Shown: positions 36,573 to 48,314 of the stretch, in pieces
Position numbering within the stretch: position 1 is the first letter of the stretch
How the letters are laid out: every line of letters begins with the position of its first letter
Assembly: GCA_021234155.1 (NCBI GenBank)
Contig: JAJEKV010000011.1
Span: 2,317,888 to 2,381,887 of the forward strand
Direction of reading: 5' to 3'
Source of the DNA: Isoetes taiwanensis
Lineage: Eukaryota; Streptophyta; Lycopodiopsida; Isoetales; Isoetaceae
Length of the DNA stretch: 64,000 nucleotides
Program-made: the position numbers and the translations under genes
Notes under the pieces: model-generated
The model's input: the letters and a program-made list of their open reading frames with translations, nothing else
What the model was told of the DNA's origin: nothing
Database searches by the model: none

Positions 36573-37544
36573 TTGAGGGTCAGTTATGGAATTGGTGGGA
36601 GGGGGCCACTGAATCCCATAAGGTCACAACTAATAACAGAAATAACAGATATGTTGGCAAGATTCAGAACTTGGAAAGAACTGGGTTGGGGTGTCAGCTA
36701 TGGAAGTCGATTGGGGGGCATTTTAGTATGTCATTGTACTAGCACATTTACCAATAGAAATAGCAGACCCCCCACTTGGATTGCTAAGTTATTTGACCCG
36801 GTATTCTGGTTAAATCTTCCTTGGAACTCGAACACCAGGTTCTATGTACAACAGTGGGCTAGCACTTGTGGTGGCGGGGCTACCTTCACCCATTCCAAGC
36901 TAGACACATTTTGGTACATATGTTTAACCAAATGCTTTGACCATGTGGGAATGGGGCTGTCATATGGGAAGTCTGACCATTGGCAAAAATATTGGGTAAC
37001 GGGCCTTATATGGCAGTTTTTGGGGAGGGGAATGATTCCAAGTATAAAATGGCAATGGTGGGTGATTATATGGGTTTTCATATGGGGTTCTATGTACAAT
37101 AAGGACAAATATGACTTTTGGGGTGTTAAAAGGGGAGGGGACTTATGTTACTTGGGCCTATCGTTTGCATCATATGGTCTAACCATTTTCAAAGCTAGGG
37201 GTCGTGAGCCACATTCAAGTATGGATGTAATAACACACCTAGGTAGTGCTTGGGATAGGGGGCCACTTATAAGGTTGTGCTGGTGGGGGGGAACCGCACA
37301 TTTTGTCTTTCGGTTTAGATGGAGGGACCGATGCAGAAAAGGAAAGGGTCATATATTCCCTGCCCTCTGTCAGATGGACCGTTTGAGACCACTGGGGAAA
37401 TACACTCCCATAGGTCATACTTACTTTGGTTCAGGTGGCCTGTGTGCAGGGAATGTTCTTTTAACAGAGACATTGCAATTCTGCCAGAAAGATTATTATA
37501 CTATTCACTATGAAAATTGTCTCCTGGAACCTTCGAGGTATTAA
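36573..37544 (+). CDS. candidate LINE ORF1 (nucleic-acid-binding protein), unrecognised
   Basis: This is a 323-codon open frame immediately upstream of ORF2 and overlapping its start by 35 nt, as in many LINEs. The predicted protein is unusually rich in Trp, Gly and Tyr, with repeated GVSYGS/GLSYGK-like words and a basic patch near its end (RFRWRDRCRKGKGH). I do not see the DUF4283 domain or a clean CCHC knuckle usual for plant L1 ORF1. It could be a true divergent ORF1 or a chance frame in repetitive sequence. Length and position favour the first. Confidence 0.45.
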   Translation: MRVSYGIGGRGPLNPIRSQLITEITDMLARFRTWKELGWGVSYGSRLGGILVCHCTSTFTNRNSRPPTWIAKLFDPVFWLNLPWNSNTRFYVQQWASTCGGGATFTHSKLDTFWYICLTKCFDHVGMGLSYGKSDHWQKYWVTGLIWQFLGRGMIPSIKWQWWVIIWVFIWGSMYNKDKYDFWGVKRGGDLCYLGLSFASYGLTIFKARGREPHSSMDVITHLGSAWDRGPLIRLCWWGGTAHFVFRFRWRDRCRKGKGHIFPALCQMDRLRPLGKYTPIGHTYFGSGGLCAGNVLLTETLQFCQKDYYTIHYENCLLEPSRY

Positions 37545-40500
37545 AGGCATCTTGAAACGTAGCAGAGTGCTTGCAGCCATTCGCTCTATGAAGGCTGATG
37601 TTATTCTCTTGCAAGAGCATAGACTTCCTGACTTCGAAGCAAGTTCTATAGGCAAGTGGGTAGGTGGCAACTATTCCTCATTTAGTTGTGCAGCCAGGGG
37701 AACTAAAGGTGGCACCTGCATCCTCTGGAGAGGCCTTGTTCAAAAGTCCTACTTTGCTGCCGGGGATGGTCGATGGCAGGTGGTGACCTTTGAATCTAAT
37801 GAGTGTCAATGGGGGGTCATCAATATATACGCGTCAAATAAGCCTGCAGAAAGGGCTGTGATGTGGAAAGAAATTGAAAGCTGGATAGGTCATCAAGGGG
37901 ATGTCATCGAGAACTGGATTCTAGGGGGAGATCTGAACATGACCGATGTTTGGGACCAAAAAATTGGGTTGCATAGAAATCTATCAGGAGATGAGGATAC
38001 CTCCTGGAACTCCTTGCTTGATAGTGTGGGATTCAACTTGATTCCACCGTCCAATGCCACCTTCTCATGGTCGAATAAGCAGAAGGGCCAAGATCGAGTA
38101 TATTGCCTATTAGACAGGTTTTATATGGCTAATAAAACAGCATGTTTCATGGATAAGTGCTATGTTGAGGGGGAGCTTGCCTTCTCCCACTCTGATCATG
38201 TTCCCCAAAGCCTATTTCTGGAAAATCTGCCTACTACTGGCAAGTGTGGAAATATCCCTTTCAAATTCAACACTTCGTGGCTAGGAAAGGAGGCATTTTG
38301 CAAGCCTTTTAGGATATTTCTATCCTCTCTCTCTAATGATCCTAATCTTCTAAGTATGAAAGCCTGGGTTGAGAAGCTCAGCCTAATGAAGGCCTGGGTT
38401 AAAGTGTGGGGGAAGAGCAGAGCCATGGAGTTCAAAAAGGGAAAGTTGGATATATATAATCAGTTGAGATTAGTTAAGCAGGACCTATTATCTGATCCAC
38501 ACAACATTGCTAAACAGAACATTGAGGCAGATTTGGAGGGGAAAGCAAAGGCAATTGAGGAGGAGGAGGCTAGAGGGGCAGCTGTTCGCTCTAAAACTAA
38601 GTGGTATACCGAACTTGACCATGAGAACTCCAAATGTTTTTTTAGAATGGCGGGTGCTAGGTTAGCTGATAATAGTATCTCATCGATTAAGGATGGCAAT
38701 TCAAATGTATTGGAGGAACACAGGAGATCAGATCATTTATTAGGGAAAGCTTTGAGAATCAATTTAAGGAAGATCCTATACCTTCCTCTTACCATGCTCA
38801 GTTGGCATGCTGGCTAACTAAAGTGGATTGGGGGGGGAAGGTTACCCGAGAAGAAAATCAGTTGTTACTACGTAACATAGAGGGGGATGAGATCTACAAA
38901 ACCTTATGCTCCCTTGCAGCAGGGAAATCTCCTGGGCCAGATGGTTTTCCTCCAGAATTCTTTGTTGAATTTTGGGATTTGCTTGGGCCGGACTTCATCA
39001 GAGCTGTTTGTGGAGCATGGATGTCATGCTCTCTACACCCATCATTAGCAGCAGGGTTTATCACTCTTGTTCCGAAGGTCCCAAGACCTCAAAGCCTGGG
39101 GGAATGGAGGCCTATCGCACTCACCAATGTCATCTATAAGGTAATCATGAAGGCTATTGCTAACCGCTTGAAACCAATTTTGAACAGGGTAATTGGGCAT
39201 GAGCAATCAGCTTTCTTGCCGGGCAGATACATATTGGATAACTACCTTGCAGCCAGGGAAGGCCTGCATTGGTGCCAGGCCTCCAAACAAAATTGTGTAA
39301 TGATTAAGATGGACTTTAGAAAGGCATATGACTCTCTCAGATGGGAAGGGTTGCGCTCAGTCATGTCCCATATGGGTTTTGAGCTCCACTTTATTCAGTT
39401 GGCTTTGGGGATGAATAACTTAGCTTCTGCGTCGGTCCTGGTTAATGGACAACCGTCTGGCCTGTTTAAACTCAAGAAGGGGATTAGACAGGGCTGCCCC
39501 CTCGCTCCCTACTTATTCCTCATCATGGCCAACCTATTGACAAGAATGGTTCAGCTAAAGATGTTAGGGGGAGATCTGGAAGGGCTTACCTTTCCTGGAG
39601 GTACAGAAAAGCTAACAATTATGCAATACGCAGATGATATCTTCATGTTCCTCAGATATGATGACAACAGTTTCCACTCATTTCGAGAGATTCTTACGTC
39701 CTTTGAGGTTATATCTGGTATCGGCCTTAATGCCAATAAGTGTGTAGTTCTCTAGGCTTCAGATAGTCCCATTGATCCTCCTGCCGGGGTCCGGGTTTTC
39801 CCAGAGTGGCACCGGAGAATCTGTTAAGCTCCCCGGTCTTCCCCGGTGCTTTCTCGACAACCTCAAAGGCCTCTGGACCCCCATAATGGATAAACTCAGA
39901 AAGAAGGTAGGCCTATGGTCCACAAAGACCTTGGCAACATCTGGTCGGGTGACAGTGGCTAATGCAGTGCTAGCTGCCTCTCATATTTATTACTCATCAG
40001 CGATGATTACCCAGAAAGGGGTTTACAATCAAATGCAAACTATCATCAGGAAATTCATTTGGGGTGGCATGGCTAAGGTGGCCTGGGAGGAACTGTGTCG
40101 GGACAAAAGGGATGGGGGATTGGGCTGCAAAGACCCCTTCACTCAGGCACAGGCCCTGGCGGCTAAATTTGTTTGGAGAGTACTACAAGGTGAGTCATCT
40201 ACTTTATCACCTGCTTTAAAATTTGCATCCTATTGGTTGAAGCAAGGTAAGCTCTTGGGAAAGCCAGCTCTCCCCAGAGATGAATTGGGAGCATTCTACT
40301 TTAGTTTCAAAGTAGCCCATGGTACATCTCCTGTGATGAGAAAGATTCTCCAAGCGTGGCTGGATGTGCAACATCTTTTTGTTCCTATGGATCCTCCTAG
40401 GGAAGCAGGTGGCTTCAGTTTATTCTGGAATACTAGGATATGGGGGAGGGAGGGTCTTCCTCTGGCCCTCTCTCACCCCCGCATCTTCATTAAATGGAAG

Positions 40501-41179
40501 AGCTATGGAATCACTAGGTTGCAACATCTGTGGATGAATGGGAGATGGGTCTGTTGGACTACATTCAAGAGTAAAATCCAGAACCCAGGCGAAGGTGACC
40601 GTAAGGTGCTACGAGAGATATTAGGCAAAGTCACCAACCTATCTGGAACAGTGGGGCCTTGTGAGGAATGGCGGGTTGATGGACATGCACAGTATAGTGT
40701 GGCAAGAATCTATCGAGGACTATGTGTAGATACTCCTCTGATAGCTGAGGCAAGGCTTGGAGTGAGCAATGGAGTTGCCAAAGCTGTTTTAGCCAACTCC
40801 TGGAAGTCGCTTTGTTCAAGAAAGATACAATTCTTCAGGTGGACAGCTTTACAAGGAGGGCTCAGTACAAAGGAAAGTTTATTCAATAAAGGTATTCTGG
40901 ACAATGATAGGTGTCCACTTGGTTGCCATACCACTGAATCTACTGGACACCTCCTCTTTTGCCCCCAGATCGCAGAGTTCTGGCACTGGGTTTGCCCCAT
41001 CATTGGGCTGATGATACACCATCTGAGATGGCCGATTTATCGATCAATCGATAGGTGCGATCGAAGCCTCCTTGGTGAATATTGCGATATGGGTCATCTG
41101 GAAACACCGATGTGATGTGGCACTAGGTGGCCAAGGGATCTCCATAGTGAAGCTAAAGAACTTTTTCAACTCGGCGTAG
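37510..41179 (+). pseudogene. LINE ORF2: AP endonuclease, reverse transcriptase, zf-RVT-like tail
   Basis: The start ATG is at 37510 (MKIVSWNLRG). The endonuclease has LLQEHR (Glu36), GGDLNM (Asp141, Asn143), a LDRF block near residue 202 and SDH (229-230). The frame shifts near 38715, and RT then continues with SPGPDGFPPEF, FLPGRYILDN, IKMDFRKAYDS, KGIRQGCPLAP and QYADDIFMF (YADD at 39627-39638). A stop lies at 39753-39755 with a shift, after which 39772-41115 carries the C-terminal region. This includes a zf-RVT-like segment (CPLGCHTTESTGHLLFCP, ~40915-40970). A last shift near 41010 leads to an IAIWVIWKHR-like end and stop at ~41179. The protein nicks DNA and primes reverse transcription at the target. 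Confidence 0.85.
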
Positions 41180-41584: not shown

Positions 41585-42270
41585 AACAAAAAGGCGCCAG
41601 AAAATCCACGGTGGGATTTTGTTGCCAAAAAACCACTGTCTCTTTGTGCAAATCCGGATAAATTGGCCACCTGGACTTTTGGAGTCATTTTGGTGTTGTT
41701 TTTAACATAAAACAACAGATAAAAACAACTGTGGACCAAAAATTGGGGTGAGTGTGTTATTAACATCCACGGAAGCCCGTAGGCAATGGGACAAGAACAT
41801 CTAGTACATAATCAAGTAAACATTGTGAGAGGATTGTTCACACACTATTAGTATTCCTCGTGAAACAAAGTTTAAAATGAAACACACTTATTTGCTCCAA
41901 ACGCACTTCAAAAGGAATCTTTGAAAGATTCCCTAAAATTCCCCTAAAAAAGTCCATTTTTAAGGTTTTTTTGTGACAGATGTAACAATTTAGGTAATTT
42001 AGGTACCCTTTTTGAGGGGTTGATTGAACATAACTTCCATGCAAAAATTTTAAATAGCAATTTTCATCCTCCTAATTTAGAACAAAAAATAGTTACTTAT
42101 ATAAAGTGTAGCGAAAAAGGGGCAATAAAAAAAATAGCAAGGGTAGTAGATTGACAAAGAAGTGATATATTCAAGGTTGTGAAAATTATACAAAATTATG
42201 AACAAAATTGTCAAAAATATAGGGCATTTTGACAAACACTCATCACCTTTACTTTCTGTTCTTTACATGT
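41585..42270. other. no gene seen
   Basis: AT-rich spacer between the LINE and the minus-strand gene. If the gene pair to the right is part of a mobile element, its left end should lie here, but I found no inverted repeat pairing with the region after 49.2 kb. Confidence 0.4.
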
Positions 42271-42275
42271 TCGAG

Positions 42276-45200
42276 TCATCGGACAAACTTATATTTTGCA
42301 GCAATATCAGGATGCATCTCATCCTGAGACTCAATTAATCCCTGATCACTTGAGCCTTCATCCTCAGCTTCACTCTCAAAACTGGATGTACTCGAACGAT
42401 CTTCTTCCTCACTGTCTACAAGTGAGTCTTCATCATCATCTTTTTTTGCCACCTTTTTGTCTAATCCACATGCCGACCTTATTAAAGTTTGAGTGACCAT
42501 ACGTAACTTATTAGCAGCAGTCAGAACAAAGTCATATGCAAGAACCTTTACTTCAGCTAGATCTATGACAGCAGTGTTAATTGCTTTGGACTTTGCTCCC
42601 TTTCCCACTCCTGTTTTTACCATCTCCAAAGTATAACTCCCACTGAAAGCATGGGCAGCATTTGTTCTCATCCAGTGCACTTTTAATTGAGTGGGAATTC
42701 CATCCTATCTTGTTACCTCCAGTACTTTAGCTAGCCAGAATGGCTTCCCAGATTCATCATTATCAGCTGGGACAGCTATGAGCATTCCTTTCTGAATCTC
42801 TGAGACTGAACCGGAGACTCGAGCAACTTGTTGTGTCGTGCGTCTGGGGCCAGTGTACATGACTCTGTCATCTTCATCTGAGCTAGCCATTATCTCTACA
42901 TGTTCCTCTTGACTTTCAACTTGCACAGGGAGAATTTGCCTAGATTTCCAGTTGAATGTAATTGGTCTTCGACCTTGTAATGAAGCTTGCAACATGTCAC
43001 GTTGCCGAGAAAATTTAACTGAGGCCACCATAAAGCATCTGCCTCCCCAAAGTGGTTAGAGCATGACTGAATACTTGTCTCCATATAATCCAATGATTTG
43101 TTTGAGTCAAATGCTCTTCCCTCCTTTTTACTCTTTGTGATTTCTTTCAAGCTTTTTAGAGGCATTTGCTCTGCAGAGAGCATAGAACTAGTATTGGGGA
43201 TGGTGCGAATGAATTGGATACCTGTTGCTGGCTGCACTGCAAGGATGTGGCATATTTCTTTCCTTGTAAGATGGCCTTGCCATCTACAAGTGAAATTTTG
43301 ATCTGATGCTGAAATGTAATATTTCTCAAGGGCTCAATAGCGCAGTGACCCAGTTGATCTCTCCGAAAAATCCATTCCTTGAAATCATAAGTTTCTTCTA
43401 ATAACTCGATGTCTGGACGAGGATTGTAGGAATCTTGGATAACCTCAATCATTGCTGGTAGGCTGAGAGCTTTTTTTCGAGCAAGACGTTTAGAGAACCT
43501 ACTGAACATCTGATCAATTTGATCGTGTGTATGACCAACAAGCAGGAAACCAATCTTCACCTTCTTGAAGATTTGTTTCTCAGCTAGCATAGCACAGTAA
43601 GCAAACAAGGCCTGATTCTTATTTTTTCTTGTCGTGTTGTCTAGCTGAAGATATAGAACCGGTGGTATATGTTCTAGATTGGAAAGAAGCTTATTCAATA
43701 TTGTGATAGTGAGATTTGGATCAGCATGAATGTTTGGATAGTTAAAAAATGCCTTGCAAGATAGTTTTCTATTAAATACCATAGCATCAACAACATGCAG
43801 GTGTATGAAGTCTTCTTCAGCAGCATCCTTAGGCACATTGACAAAATGTGGTAGGGTGGTCTTCTTCTGGTCCATTCCATCAATAACAACCGATATGTAG
43901 TTGAGTGGTTGTTCCAGTGCTTTCTTCCTATGTTTTGTCAATTTTCTCCTTTCCAAAGATTGTTGTTCTCTGTGCTTGTTCAGTTTCTCTTTCAATTCAT
44001 CTGAAATGAAAATATGTTCAGGAAAGAACCTATTTTTAAGTAGAACTAGGCAAGAACATGTTTTGGAAGCTTACTTTTAGTGTGAAGTGTCCTTGCATTT
44101 TGTCTCTGAGCTTTAATTCAGAGCATGTAGCACAAACAGACATCCGGTGCTTTTTAGGAATGGACACGCGAGAAAACTCTTTTTTCCAGAGCACAGTGAA
44201 GTAAGAGTAGCAGACATGGCATTCTCCAGCCTCAACACACATATCCTTATAATTACTGTAGACTTCACGTTTCGTGAAGTTGTCACTCAAGTGGTACATA
44301 GGGCTGTTAGGGAGTTTCTCGCATGACTCCTTAAAGAAACCTTCCATCCAGGAAACACATTGAAGGGCATGAATTCTGGATATACCTCCTGAATGGCAGT
44401 AGTCATTAATGCCTGGATTCTTGTCAAGTCTTTTCTTCAGGCGGTCAAGTCGTCTGCTGCCTAAAGCATGAATCAATTTAAAAGCTGTTTGACAGACGGT
44501 GTAAACCTTTCACCATAATCTGGCCTAATATTGAAGGCTAAGTAGCCCCTTTGGTCTAGCAGAGTCATTGAACTGTAACAATCGTCCATGAGTTTCTTTC
44601 TTCTTTGGGTTGTACATGCTTTCTTGTGTAAGTTTCGCTTAAGATTCTTACTTGCAGGAGCTTTGAATTCAAACATAGAGTCTTGTGGCTTTGGTAGGTC
44701 CTCGTCTGAGAGATCAACATGAGGTGTTTCTTCGTCTGAGAGATCAACATGAGGTGTACTAGTAGATGCTGAGAGGTTTGGTGTGGGCAATTCCTGGGGG
44801 GGAGGTGCTTTCCCTCTCTCTGGGAAAAAGTAATCGAGGTTGGTGACGTAATTGACCAGCTCCCTCAAGTGTCGTGAGAACACGGGGAGTTGCGTGGCGG
44901 GGCTCGCCCCCACTTGTTGTAGTACCAATTAGCTTAAATGGATGGAGTTGGCGTGATTTGCCTCCGGGGGGCAGGCCCTCTGATGGACTATGGGAGACGT
45001 TACTAAAATGAACTGGAGGAGATAGTCCGAGCTCAGAGCCTGTTGTGGAGTAAAACACATTGGTGGGGGCAAACGACGCTCGTTCGAGCGTGGGGTGTGG
45101 TGGAGTAAATTGAACCGGGTGGTGGAAGCCGAGGTGGTCGTGGTGGAGTAAATTGAACAGAGCCGGGGTTTGAATATCGGAGGCGTAATTTTCAGAACTA

Positions 45201-45293
45201 CTTCCCCGTCAGTCTTGAGGATGTGTGAAAGTCATTGCAGAGGAAGCCTCGCGAACGTGAGTTGGAGGCTCGGCTTCTTTTCTCTCGAGCCAT
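42276..45293 (-). pseudogene. transposase-like gene with DUF7869-type domain (gene A)
   Basis: Probable start ATG is at 45293 (MAREKRSRASNSRSRG). The N-terminal ~270 residues are low-complexity (repeated TPHVDLSDE). A Cys/His-rich part follows (CVEAGECHVCYSYF, then SVCATCSEL; ~44235-44110). A 74-nt GT-AG intron lies at 44074-44001. The downstream exon carries the core: VVIDGMDQKKTTLPHF (~43890), YLQLDNTTRKNKNQA (~43645) and LVGHTHDQIDQMFSRFSK (~43540-43490), resembling the family I know as DUF7869 and an RNase-H-like D/D/D arrangement. A FWLAKVLEV...KVHWM block (BAH/Tudor-like, ~42740-42665) and an acidic tail end the protein. Frame breaks near 45190, 44500, 44000, 43240 and 43035, plus an in-frame TAG at 42705, suggest decay or sequence error. 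Confidence 0.7.
44001..44074 (-). other. intron of gene A
   Basis: In the minus strand a GTAAGC donor follows the AAA codon ending at 44075. A TTTCAG acceptor precedes the next exon at 44000. The phase does not fit by one base, which I attribute to an indel near the junction. Confidence 0.6.
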
Positions 45294-45322
45294 ACTGAAA
45301 GTTAGGGCCATTAATCAGAGCA

Positions 45323-46072
45323 AATTTATACCTAAAATAGATTTCGGTATAAATTTATACGTAGATGGTATAAATTTATACGTAGGAGGGCAACATAGAA
45401 CGTAAAACGTAAAATTTATAATTAAACTCCTGCATTAATTGTATTGGAAACTTTATGGAGAAACGCTTATACCTAAACGCAAGACTTAACAGAGGTACTT
45501 AAGCCCTCGGCCGGGCCAATTCTATTTTCTATATACACCGCCGAGTCGGCCGCCACGCCGTTTTATATACCCCAACCTTGTTTCTCCTAACAGCTATAAG
45601 TTTAATCCATACGGTCATGGCCACATAAGTCTCTAATCCGTTGAGTCTAAGCTCCTTCTGTATAAATTTATACCGAAATTATTCTGGAACGGTATAAATT
45701 TATACGCCGAGCAATCTGGTATAAATTTATACCGCTATAGAACACTTCAAGTATAAATTTATATGCCTCGAAGACGAAGCGTATAAATTTATACCGTTAG
45801 TAGTTCGAACCAGTATAAATTTATACCGCCGTCTTCGAGATACCGAAAGTGTTCGAAACGGTATAAATTTATACCACTTCGTTCGTGCGAGGCGATAAAT
45901 TTATACCACGAAAGTGTTCCACGAATCGGTATAAATTTATATCGCTTTCGTTCTTTCGAGGCGTATAAATTTATACCGCGAGTGTTCTGCAACGGTATAA
46001 ATTTATACCGCTCATGCTCGAGGCGTATAAATTTATACCGTTCCAGAACAATTTCGGTACAAATTTATACAG
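45323..46072. promoter_or_regulatory. array of 16-bp palindromes GGTATAAATTTATACC in a divergent intergenic region
   Basis: About fifteen full or near-full copies of the perfect palindrome GGTATAAATTTATACC, plus one half copy at 45322, lie between the divergent starts of gene A (45293) and gene B (~46.3 kb). Full-core copies centre near 45354, 45375, 45667, 45699, 45726, 45758, 45788, 45820, 45868, 45900, 45936, 45970, 46002, 46032 and 46064. From 45667 on, spacings are 27-36 bp with one of 48, most often exactly 32, close to three helical turns. Spacers differ but often hold TTCGAA, GTTC or GAAC. Each palindrome contains TATAAAT on both strands. It may be an operator array, a parS-like site or symmetric TATA boxes. 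A CCAAT word (45516) and TATATA words (45531, 45564) lie in the gap near 45.5 kb. Confidence 0.85.
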
Positions 46073-46694
46073 AAGACAACATTTATGTTTCTATTCTCGT
46101 AACGTGTCGAGAGTCTAAAACAATGTCATGAACCTTAGTAGTTGAGTATAAATGTTGTGTTTTAAAGATCAAATGACACAAATAAAGGGTTAAAATAGCG
46201 TGCATTTTAGGTCCTTTAAGCCAGTTTTCTTACAGTTAAAGTGTCCAAAATAGTGGCGAAAAACTGTATTTTTGGTGTAAAAATGGGTTTTTTTGCTCCT
46301 TTTCAGCACAAAGATCAAGTTCACACAGAGAGGCCAATCATCAAAGGCGAATCCAGCAGAGCCACAAACATATGAACTGACAGACCAGACGTGGTACGTA
46401 CACAGGGGTGCGAGAGAGCGCAAACCCACAGAGGCGTACCTTTATTTGTGTAACCAGTCAGGGAGGGGAAAGTTTACCAAAGATGATTACTACCCCGCGG
46501 GGGAAATGATAACCCTTACTGCAACAGAAAATGAAGATGAGATTTTTATGAAGTGCAATAATGACAACGGTGAAGTCTTCTATATTCTGAACAGTAGAAT
46601 GCTCCGCATAAGCATGTGCAGACCTAAAGACGTCCATGATTACATGGCGGAAAATTATAAGAATGGCTATGTAAGTATGTGTTAGTGGCTTCAC

Positions 46695-46709
46695 GTATAA
46701 ATTTATACC
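46695..46709. repeat. palindrome copy in intron of gene B
   Basis: GTATAAATTTATACC lies inside the intron 46671-46739, the same word as in the intergenic array. Confidence 0.9.
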
Positions 46710-46972: not shown

Positions 46973-47130
46973 TGTAACGTTCCTAACCGACATGCCCTTA
47001 ACCAACTGGGCAAAACCGTCTAGACGTTTATGAGTAGTCGCTTCTACCCATTTATGTCGGTGTCTCGGGAACGCCCCACAGGCACATTCAAGGTTCGAAT
47101 ACTCGAGCGGTCTACCATGGGCTCGTTACA
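46973..47130 (-). repeat. TRIM 3' LTR
   Basis: 158 bp, TG...CA, paired with 47290-47447. The LTR contains GGTTCGAATACTC, similar to a tRNA B box. Confidence 0.93.
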
Positions 47131-47289
47131 GTCTCTCCCACTAGAACTATGCTCGTCCTCGAGCATCCAAGGCTATATCATATCATATCTATGTCATACC
47201 AAGTCACAATGAGTACCAAGTCTTTGCAAATTACCCATGCATATAGGCACCCATGAAGACTCGAACTCAAGACCTGCTCTGATACCAAA

Positions 47290-47447
47290 TGTAACGTTCC
47301 TAACCGACATGCCCTTAGCCAACTGGGCAAAACCGTCTAGACGTTTATGAGTAGTCGCTTCTACCCATTTATGTCGGTGTCTCGGGAACGCCCCACAGGC
47401 ACATTCAAGGTTCGAATACTCGAGCGGTCTACCATGGGCCCGTTACA
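47290..47447 (-). repeat. TRIM 5' LTR
   Basis: 158 bp, TG...CA, next to the initiator tRNA-Met primer binding site. Confidence 0.93.
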
Positions 47448-48264
47448 ATAGAGGAGTCAGCAGAAGCTCTTCAAAAGGCTCCTGGGGCAGACGTTGTTGT
47501 GCGGCCGTCTGATAAGTCAAGTGCTATTTTGAAGAGGGTTAATGAGACCAAACTCCTCAAGCAAACCATTTCATTGACACTGAGCACGATTAAGAGGCCA
47601 CCAAAAAATGAAGATGGGGTCAGAGTGCTTCAGGTTAGGAAGTTGTACGCGGCACATGTGGCTATCCTCAAGCAAAGAATGAGAAGGAATCCACATGCAC
47701 ATGTGTCGCCACTGGTTGTTATGGTTGACAGAAGTCAGGTCAACCAACTAAAAGATTACAAAAAAGCCGACTTCGAGGATTACACCTACTATGTTCTTGG
47801 TGGCACACACAGCTACAAAGCAAGAAAAGAATTATCAAAAGAAGACAGTCGGAATGAAGTCTGGAAGAGCGTCGACACACATCTACGTGGGGCTTACAGA
47901 CGAAGAAGCAAAGGTCATTGCCGTGAGCCATAATCTCGACAATGACTTTAGACTAAAAATGAGCCTCATCGACAAAATTCGTTTCATGCACCGAGAATAT
48001 GTAGAGTTCAAACAAGTGCATGGAGAAGACTTCAAAAAACAAAAAAACAAGCTTCATAAGAAGCCCATAATGGCAGTGAAGCAGTACGACAATTACTTCC
48101 AGCTTGCTTTCAGAGATGGTCAAGTAAGTAAAAGCTTTAATTTAGTCTTTTGTAGTACACTTAGCATAGCTTAGTTTGTGTATTAACCTCGAACTGTGTA
48201 AATTGGTATCAACCATGGAAGCCTGGTCACGGTTTGAATTTACACCGTGACTAGATCTCGGTAC

Positions 48265-48314
48265 GGTATAAATTTATACCGTTACCTCGGCACGGTATAA
48301 ATTTATACCGTGCC
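48265..48314. repeat. two palindrome copies in an intron of gene B, one extended to 26 bp
   Basis: GGTATAAATTTATACC lies at 48265-48280 and 48294-48309, centre to centre 29 bp. The second is extended by GGCAC on the left and GTGCC on the right to a perfect 26-bp palindrome (48289-48314). Both lie in the intron 48124-48403. Confidence 0.9.

Follow-up and report, generated by a model that had tools for sequence, protein, structure and literature searches.

The window, as we call the whole 64-kb stretch of Isoetes taiwanensis DNA that was analysed, holds two divergent genes with an array of short palindromes in between (Table 1). The sequence-only reading had described about fifteen palindromes, most often 32 bp apart, between divergent genes, and the count, the spacing and the gene orientation were all borne out. 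With up to three mismatches allowed, GGTATAAATTTATACC (word A; preferred extended form CGGTATAAATTTATACCG) was found 19 times in the window, against 0.35 matches expected, and none of 100 shuffles gave 19 or more. Fifteen of the matches make up the array, with no mismatch in three copies, one in nine, two in two and three in one. The other four lie within the ParB-like gene, at 46694, 48231, 48265 and 48294. Successive copies in the array were exactly 32 bp apart in 6 of 14 cases.

Table 1. Features of the palindrome-bearing element and of its surroundings in the window.
Feature	Positions	Strand	Remarks
Terminal inverted repeat, AACAAAGTTTAAAATGAAAC...	41864..41893	+	Element's end on the DUF7869 side
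DUF7869 gene, presumed to encode the transposase, in several exons or pieces	42276..44928	-	From open reading frames and relatives; borders read from sequence
DUF7869 domain (PF25273)	43246..43827	-	Residues 82-275 of a 304-aa open frame
GGTATAAATTTATACC array, 15 copies with at most 3 mismatches	45346..46071	.	Shared upstream region of both genes
Open frame holding the N-terminal exon (Pe1) of the ParB-methyltransferase gene	46281..46682	+	Conserved in relatives
GGTATAAATTTATACC copy	46694..46709	.	Intron 1 of the ParB-like gene
TRIM-like LTR insertion	46973..47447	+	Inside the ParB-like gene; 159-bp LTRs; target duplication ATAGA
ParB-like exon, motif VLGGTHSYKARKEL	47451..48125	+	Frame break near 47870 in the window copy
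Three GGTATAAATTTATACC copies, one with 3 mismatches	48231..48309	.	Intron 2 of the ParB-like gene
Middle exons P3, P4 and start of P5	48401..49052	+	Homology with relatives ends at about 49052

The gene on the minus strand matched the DUF7869 family (PF25273) with an E-value of 1.7e-50 and 171.8 bits, the cut-off being 26. Its pieces have homologues at the loci L021, L024 and L026, and another relative, L027, has a DUF7869 open frame of 784 aa. The DUF7869 protein is presumably a transposase, and we infer an RNase-H fold for it; fold prediction of the window piece without relatives gave a pLDDT of 38.1, too low to be of use. No confirmed relatives of the DUF7869 or the ParB-like pieces were found in viral contigs.

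The copy in the window is damaged. The point at which homology with relatives sets in is 41864 for L016, L023 and L025, 41863 for L020 and L021, and 41859 for L018, and the terminal sequence at 41864 is found inverted at the ends of complete relatives. On the other side homology extends only to about 49052, and this copy accordingly lacks both the methyltransferase domain described below and the element's end on the ParB side. The TRIM-like insertion in the ParB-like gene has LTRs that are 98.7% identical and a sequence complementary to TGGTATCAGAGC, which we take to be its primer-binding site; it is later damage and foreign to the palindrome-bearing element. Next to the element, at 37510-41115, are LINE-like frames that by eye look like an endonuclease and a reverse transcriptase.

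The array and the two genes are part of a two-gene DNA transposon that is dispersed in the genome. The element has terminal inverted repeats of about 30 bp, makes 4-bp target duplications and is about 8.0-8.6 kb long, and short copies of 2.2 kb exist too. Complete copies have AACAA[G/A]GTTTAAAATGAAAC... inverted repeats at their ends, and perfect 4-bp target duplications were present in nine of the ten complete elements examined, L025 being the exception. Long elements were found at L024 together with L058 (8601 bp, duplication ACCC), L027 (8046 bp, AATG) and L028 (8037 bp, TTAT), and an element of 3.4 kb at L020 (TTGA). Short elements of about 2.1-2.3 kb were flanked by AAAT (L016), ATAG (L023), GATT (L049), TGTC (L054) and AGAA (L056). 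The short element of L025 is directly adjoined by a distant DUF7869 fragment (L025:3355-3488, 42-47% identity) and has possibly inserted into that gene fragment, which also indicates that further DUF7869 families occur in the genome.

The genome (1,658,258,908 bases in 1110 contigs) was searched for palindromic words and for a terminal sequence. Perfect word A occurred 7218 times, with no occurrence of the reversed control, and one exact 39-base terminal sequence occurred 686 times (369 + 317). In a sample made up of the first ten loci on the genome list of word-A arrays, all ten carried genes or termini of one element. The possibility raised earlier that the palindrome is a common satellite unrelated to the genes is thereby rejected for this sample. 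Conversely, ten loci were taken from the list of 39-base termini, leaving out four loci already studied, and each of them had at least one word-A site (up to three mismatches) within 2.4 kb: 2 to 8 sites in eight loci, 12 in one and a single site in one.

In better-preserved copies the gene opposite DUF7869 is predicted to encode a fusion of a ParB-like protein with a beta-class N6A/N4C DNA methyltransferase (PF01555), referred to below as the ParB-methyltransferase. At L024, L026, L027 and L047 the gene extends past the ParB-like exon into exons with ADIPYG or ADLPYG, and exons with LDAFSGSGT are present at L024, L027 and L047; at L026 the exon after the middle region continues unbroken into motif IV. 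The exon borders of this gene were read from sequence alone. The motif-I exon matched PF01555 in L027 (E 2.7e-16), and in L024 with 0.0017, below the cut-off, while the motif-IV exons of L026, L027 and L028 on their own gave no PF01555 match. Read directly, the motifs are LDAFSGSGTT (motif I, FxGxG class) and ADIPYG/ADLPYG (motif IV), the latter thus being DIPY or DLPY and not DPPY, with the first P of D-P-P-Y replaced by I or L. A PHROG DNA methyltransferase was matched at 5e-17, and the best solved structure for the methyltransferase part was MboIIA (2.5e-6). The motif-I piece matched 592 phage records; in two of these that were inspected, Tote and a Nodularia phage, the methyltransferase is not annotated as a ParB fusion. 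Within lineage A (the copies with word A) the ParB exons had dN/dS values of 0.04-0.14 at dS 0.58-1.16; the methyltransferase motif-I exon compared between lineages B and C gave dN/dS 0.12 at a dS of 2.85, which is near saturation. All ParB-methyltransferase copies that were read have stops, frame breaks or deletions.

The ParB label for the exon at the VLGGTHS motif is a weak one. For the ParB-like fold claimed from the sequence, hhalign against four phage ParB-like proteins gave an E-value of 4.2e-5 and 70% probability over 50 columns at this motif, the four proteins having been selected for being tblastn matches and "ParB-like" being their depositors' name, but Pfam searches of the ParB-like part matched no ParB family. 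Pfam ParB families likewise matched none of three of these four phage proteins. The tblastn search of the ParB-like part against phages (E up to 10) returned 50 records, none of them significant. Twenty-five of these (H16-H40) comprised 19 annotated as ParB-like, three from other viruses and three annotated as hypothetical or as a regulator, from the same kind of Mycobacterium phage. In profile searches the ParB-like part of L026 gave phrog_723 at 0.013 and phrog_6392 at 0.039, and that of L027 gave nothing ParB-like among the PHROG profiles; TIGR03764 was matched by L027 at 0.041 and not by L026. Sub-threshold Pfam matches were IgA0_D2 (0.0007, 3 of 5 members) and DUF6551 (0.0024, 2 of 5). 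Against solved structures the ParB-like profile placed DHFR-TS first (0.03), with sulfiredoxin at 1 to 2, and fold prediction of the window piece without relatives was uninformative, with a pLDDT of 38.5.

The two genes occur together far more often than by chance. Among the matches listed, 42 of 130 DUF7869 places (132 rows) had a ParB place within 10 kb, where about 0.2 are expected by chance, and 40 of these 42 pairs were head-to-head. Between the window and L026 the DUF7869 exons are nearly identical (dS 0.09, 43231-44070) but the ParB exons are distant (dS 0.79, 47451-47870), which suggests that the DUF7869 and ParB modules may recombine, perhaps at the array.

Twelve intergenic stretches were chosen by protein matches over a range of identities and not by the palindrome, nine of them by DUF7869 and ParB matches and three by DUF7869 alone. 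All twelve had an array between the genes, made up of word A in nine (6-20 sites each), word B in one (L046, 6 sites) and a mixed third type in two. The expectation that an array of the same or a different word accompanies the gene pair was thus confirmed at all twelve loci, different words included. Word B (TGTATTCCGGAATACA) forms arrays in L027 and L028 in the same places as word A elsewhere, and no word A was found there at up to three mismatches. The DUF7869 protein of both loci is 63% identical to that of lineage A, and the ParB part of L027 48%. Short spacings of 41-42 bp made up 8 of 13 in the word-B arrays, and word B occurred 3392 times in the genome, with no occurrence of its reversed control. 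At L028:5418-5639 some word-B sites sit within longer perfect palindromes of up to 38 bp. The mixed arrays of L044 and L045 contain GGTATGAATTCATACC and relatives with AAATTT, GAATTT, AAATTC, TAATTT or AAATTA cores. Beside L044 lies the ParB-methyltransferase gene of L047, whose intron 2, downstream of the ParB exon, contains word C (GTATGAATTCATAC) three times without a mismatch; the ParB part of this gene is 62% identical to A and 46-48% to B. Words A, B and C all fit GTAT-N6-ATAC, with changes that are symmetric in both half-sites, and the palindromes of the arrays are 14-18 bp long. L057 was considered as a lineage of about 50% identity carrying word A, and this was rejected, its sequence being nearest to A and decayed.

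The placement of the sites was uneven within the element. In the five elements counted (L024 covered in part) no site was found in the DUF7869 gene, the sites being confined to the stretch between the genes, the ParB-methyltransferase gene and the 3' end of that gene. In L026 the sites within the ParB-methyltransferase gene are in introns, and one 3'-end palindrome overlaps the stop codon. Spacings across 12 word-A loci formed clusters near 21, 31, 42, 52 and 63 bp. The phasing proposed from the window alone was also seen beyond the main class: with the 27-37-bp spacings left out, together with those below 17 or above 70 bp and repeats within a locus, the remaining 36 spacings gave R = 0.54 at 10.5 bp. 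In simulations random spacings reached this value with a probability of 5e-5, or 5e-4 when the best period from 7 to 16 bp was taken, figures that are not strict because the loci share ancestry.

The palindromes were also less diverged than the spacers around them. In 36 close ordered pairs of arrays palindrome divergence was 4.8% as compared to 15.8% in the spacers, and it was less than half the spacer value in 29 of them and in 139 of 151 ordered pairs overall, a benchmark that allows for the selection of a perfect site in one copy only. In the other seven close pairs the palindromes were not below half the spacer value, and from L036 to L043 they diverged more than the spacers. The 13 arrays give 156 ordered pairs, which are not independent, and five were dropped for having too few palindrome letters.

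We see an even chance that the array is a private address to which the ParB-methyltransferase of the same element binds, for auto-regulation or to counter silencing. In this reading dimers of the protein would sit on the palindromes along one face of the helix, and the methyltransferase domain would modify the element's own regulatory DNA. Binding or modification would then let the protein auto-regulate the divergent promoters, hold off host silencing in the manner of VANC on VANDAL arrays, or both. The ParB-methyltransferase is favoured as the reader of the word, since the sites are found in its gene and in the flanking DNA, and since the third lineage (C), in which the word has changed, appears to have a DUF7869 protein closer to A (75% identity) and a ParB part more distant from A than six word-A loci, where DUF7869 is 65-71% and ParB 79-94% identical; these six carry internal stops, and their low DUF7869 identity may reflect decay. 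Several observations count against an address read by this protein: the word-C core is exact in only two of six intergenic sites of the third lineage, word A still accompanies divergent remnants of the first exon (25-40% identity), and a candidate recognition helix in the middle exons, picked by eye, hardly differs between lineages. Since there are only three lineages, shared descent by itself could also account for the differences in word and protein. A DNA-marking system that is complete and private to the element, in which the ParB-like domain would read a lineage-specific GTAT-N6-ATAC array, the fused bacterial/phage-type methyltransferase would write N6-methyladenine or N4-methylcytosine on the regulatory DNA of the element to keep it active, and the word would be re-coded as lineages diverge, is a tentative proposal that we hold to be more probably wrong than right.

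Subterminal repeats assemble complexes for TnpA of En/Spm or for the Ac transposase, and the palindromes could similarly be sites at which the DUF7869 transposase or an accessory factor assembles a transposition complex. Short elements without most of the genes keep the array, which is what one would expect of a cis element required for transposition, and three complete short elements found by the terminal repeat and not by the palindrome (L049, L054, L056) also have it; helical phasing would fit a multimer on one face as well. However, the sites are internal, the array of L016 beginning about 1.35 kb from one element end and stopping about 0.6 kb from the other, and the DUF7869 gene has none. 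The identity pattern given above is suggestive in the same direction, with the reservation about decay made there, and a word that follows the transposase is disfavoured. We regard the transposition-complex explanation as fairly unlikely. A host transcription factor that reads the array as a bidirectional promoter or enhancer is an unlikely explanation. The position of the array upstream of two divergent genes would suit this, palindromes of such size are typical transcription factor sites, and word A contains TATAAAT. However, words B and C lack TATAAA and occupy the same places without a TATA box, so that a TATA-box array was rejected, and a host factor would not readily account for different words among lineages of a single genome.

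Quite unlikely, in our judgement, is a non-functional tandem-repeat expansion in which slippage and fold-back duplication let a palindromic repeat spread along with the transposon. Spacers within the array are partly repeated and partly inverted, and palindrome arrays arise elsewhere in the genome too: at L025:7916-8205, about 2.2 kb outside the short element, there is an apparently unrelated tandem array of the palindrome AAGGAATATTCCTT, with 11 near-copies of the GGAATATTCC core, 6 of them exact, and neither DUF7869 nor ParB was matched there. Expansion alone sits poorly with palindromes that are less diverged than their spacers, with the repeated presence of sites in different introns and at the 3' end, with spacings that, outside the main class, gather around multiples of about 10.5 bp, and with the same layout of a different word in sister lineages. 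Bacterial ParB-parS systems pair a ParB protein with short palindromic sites, and the earlier suggestion of a segregation role drew on a ParB-like domain, itself weakly supported, beside 16-bp palindromes. This suggestion fared badly, as the array sits inside a dispersed transposon. A parS system would have few sites on a replicon, forming a segregation locus, and a partner gene for ParA, whereas here there are thousands of dispersed sites inside transposons; the protein is predicted to be fused to a methyltransferase, no partition context was seen and no ParA gene was recognised among the element's genes. A parS-like partition or centromere-like locus is therefore very improbable.

For the preferred reading, an address bound by the ParB-methyltransferase, the closest analogue appears to be VANC of the Arabidopsis VANDAL21 and VANDAL6 elements. 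MuDR elements make 9-11 bp target duplications, unlike the 4 bp of the Isoetes element, and the Pfam matches of the element's pieces (DUF7869, PF01555) include no VANC-like or MuDR-type family. According to the parts of the VANDAL papers used here, VANC proteins bind arrays of motifs, with binding and loss of methylation demonstrated, and the motifs form tandem arrays in introns and upstream regions and differ between related families (PMC5735166, PMC10398659). The Isoetes element resembles them in having dense short motifs in its introns and upstream non-coding DNA and in words that vary among relatives. In the same parts of these papers the VANC21 motif, YAGTATTAY, has one orientation and is non-palindromic, in contrast to the palindromic words of the Isoetes element (PMC5735166, PMC10398659). 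The proteins also differ, VANC in the one case and DUF7869 with a ParB-like methyltransferase in the other, for which binding and anti-silencing are inferred.

Two further systems are related in other ways. As set out in sections of the rotifer study, bdelloid N4CMT was captured from bacteria and helps to silence transposons (PMC8885841). It is likewise a bacterial-type N6_N4_Mtase enzyme in a eukaryote that is tied to transposons and tandem repeats, but it has SPPY, whereas the Isoetes protein has DIPY or DLPY and is encoded by the transposon itself. Fungal DNA transposons that carry TET/JBP dioxygenases, proposed to serve escape from silencing, are also transposons with their own DNA-modification enzyme; the enzyme is of another class, and the portions of that article drawn on here mention no matching palindrome array (PMC12730594). 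In open-access PubMed Central, judged mainly by titles and the opening lines of abstracts, we found no description of an element such as this one, no paper on DUF7869 and none on ParB with subterminal repeats and palindromes.

If the address reading is true, sequence-specific self-recognition by a transposon, known from VANDAL/VANC, would have arisen anew, with different proteins and coupled to an enzyme that modifies DNA. The protein and word pairs A, B and C would then be natural pairs within one genome for the co-evolution of DNA recognition. The I. taiwanensis genome, according to the part of its description used here, was sequenced partly by Nanopore (PMC8566536), and the element would offer a testable case of transposon-written, non-C5 DNA methylation in a land plant.
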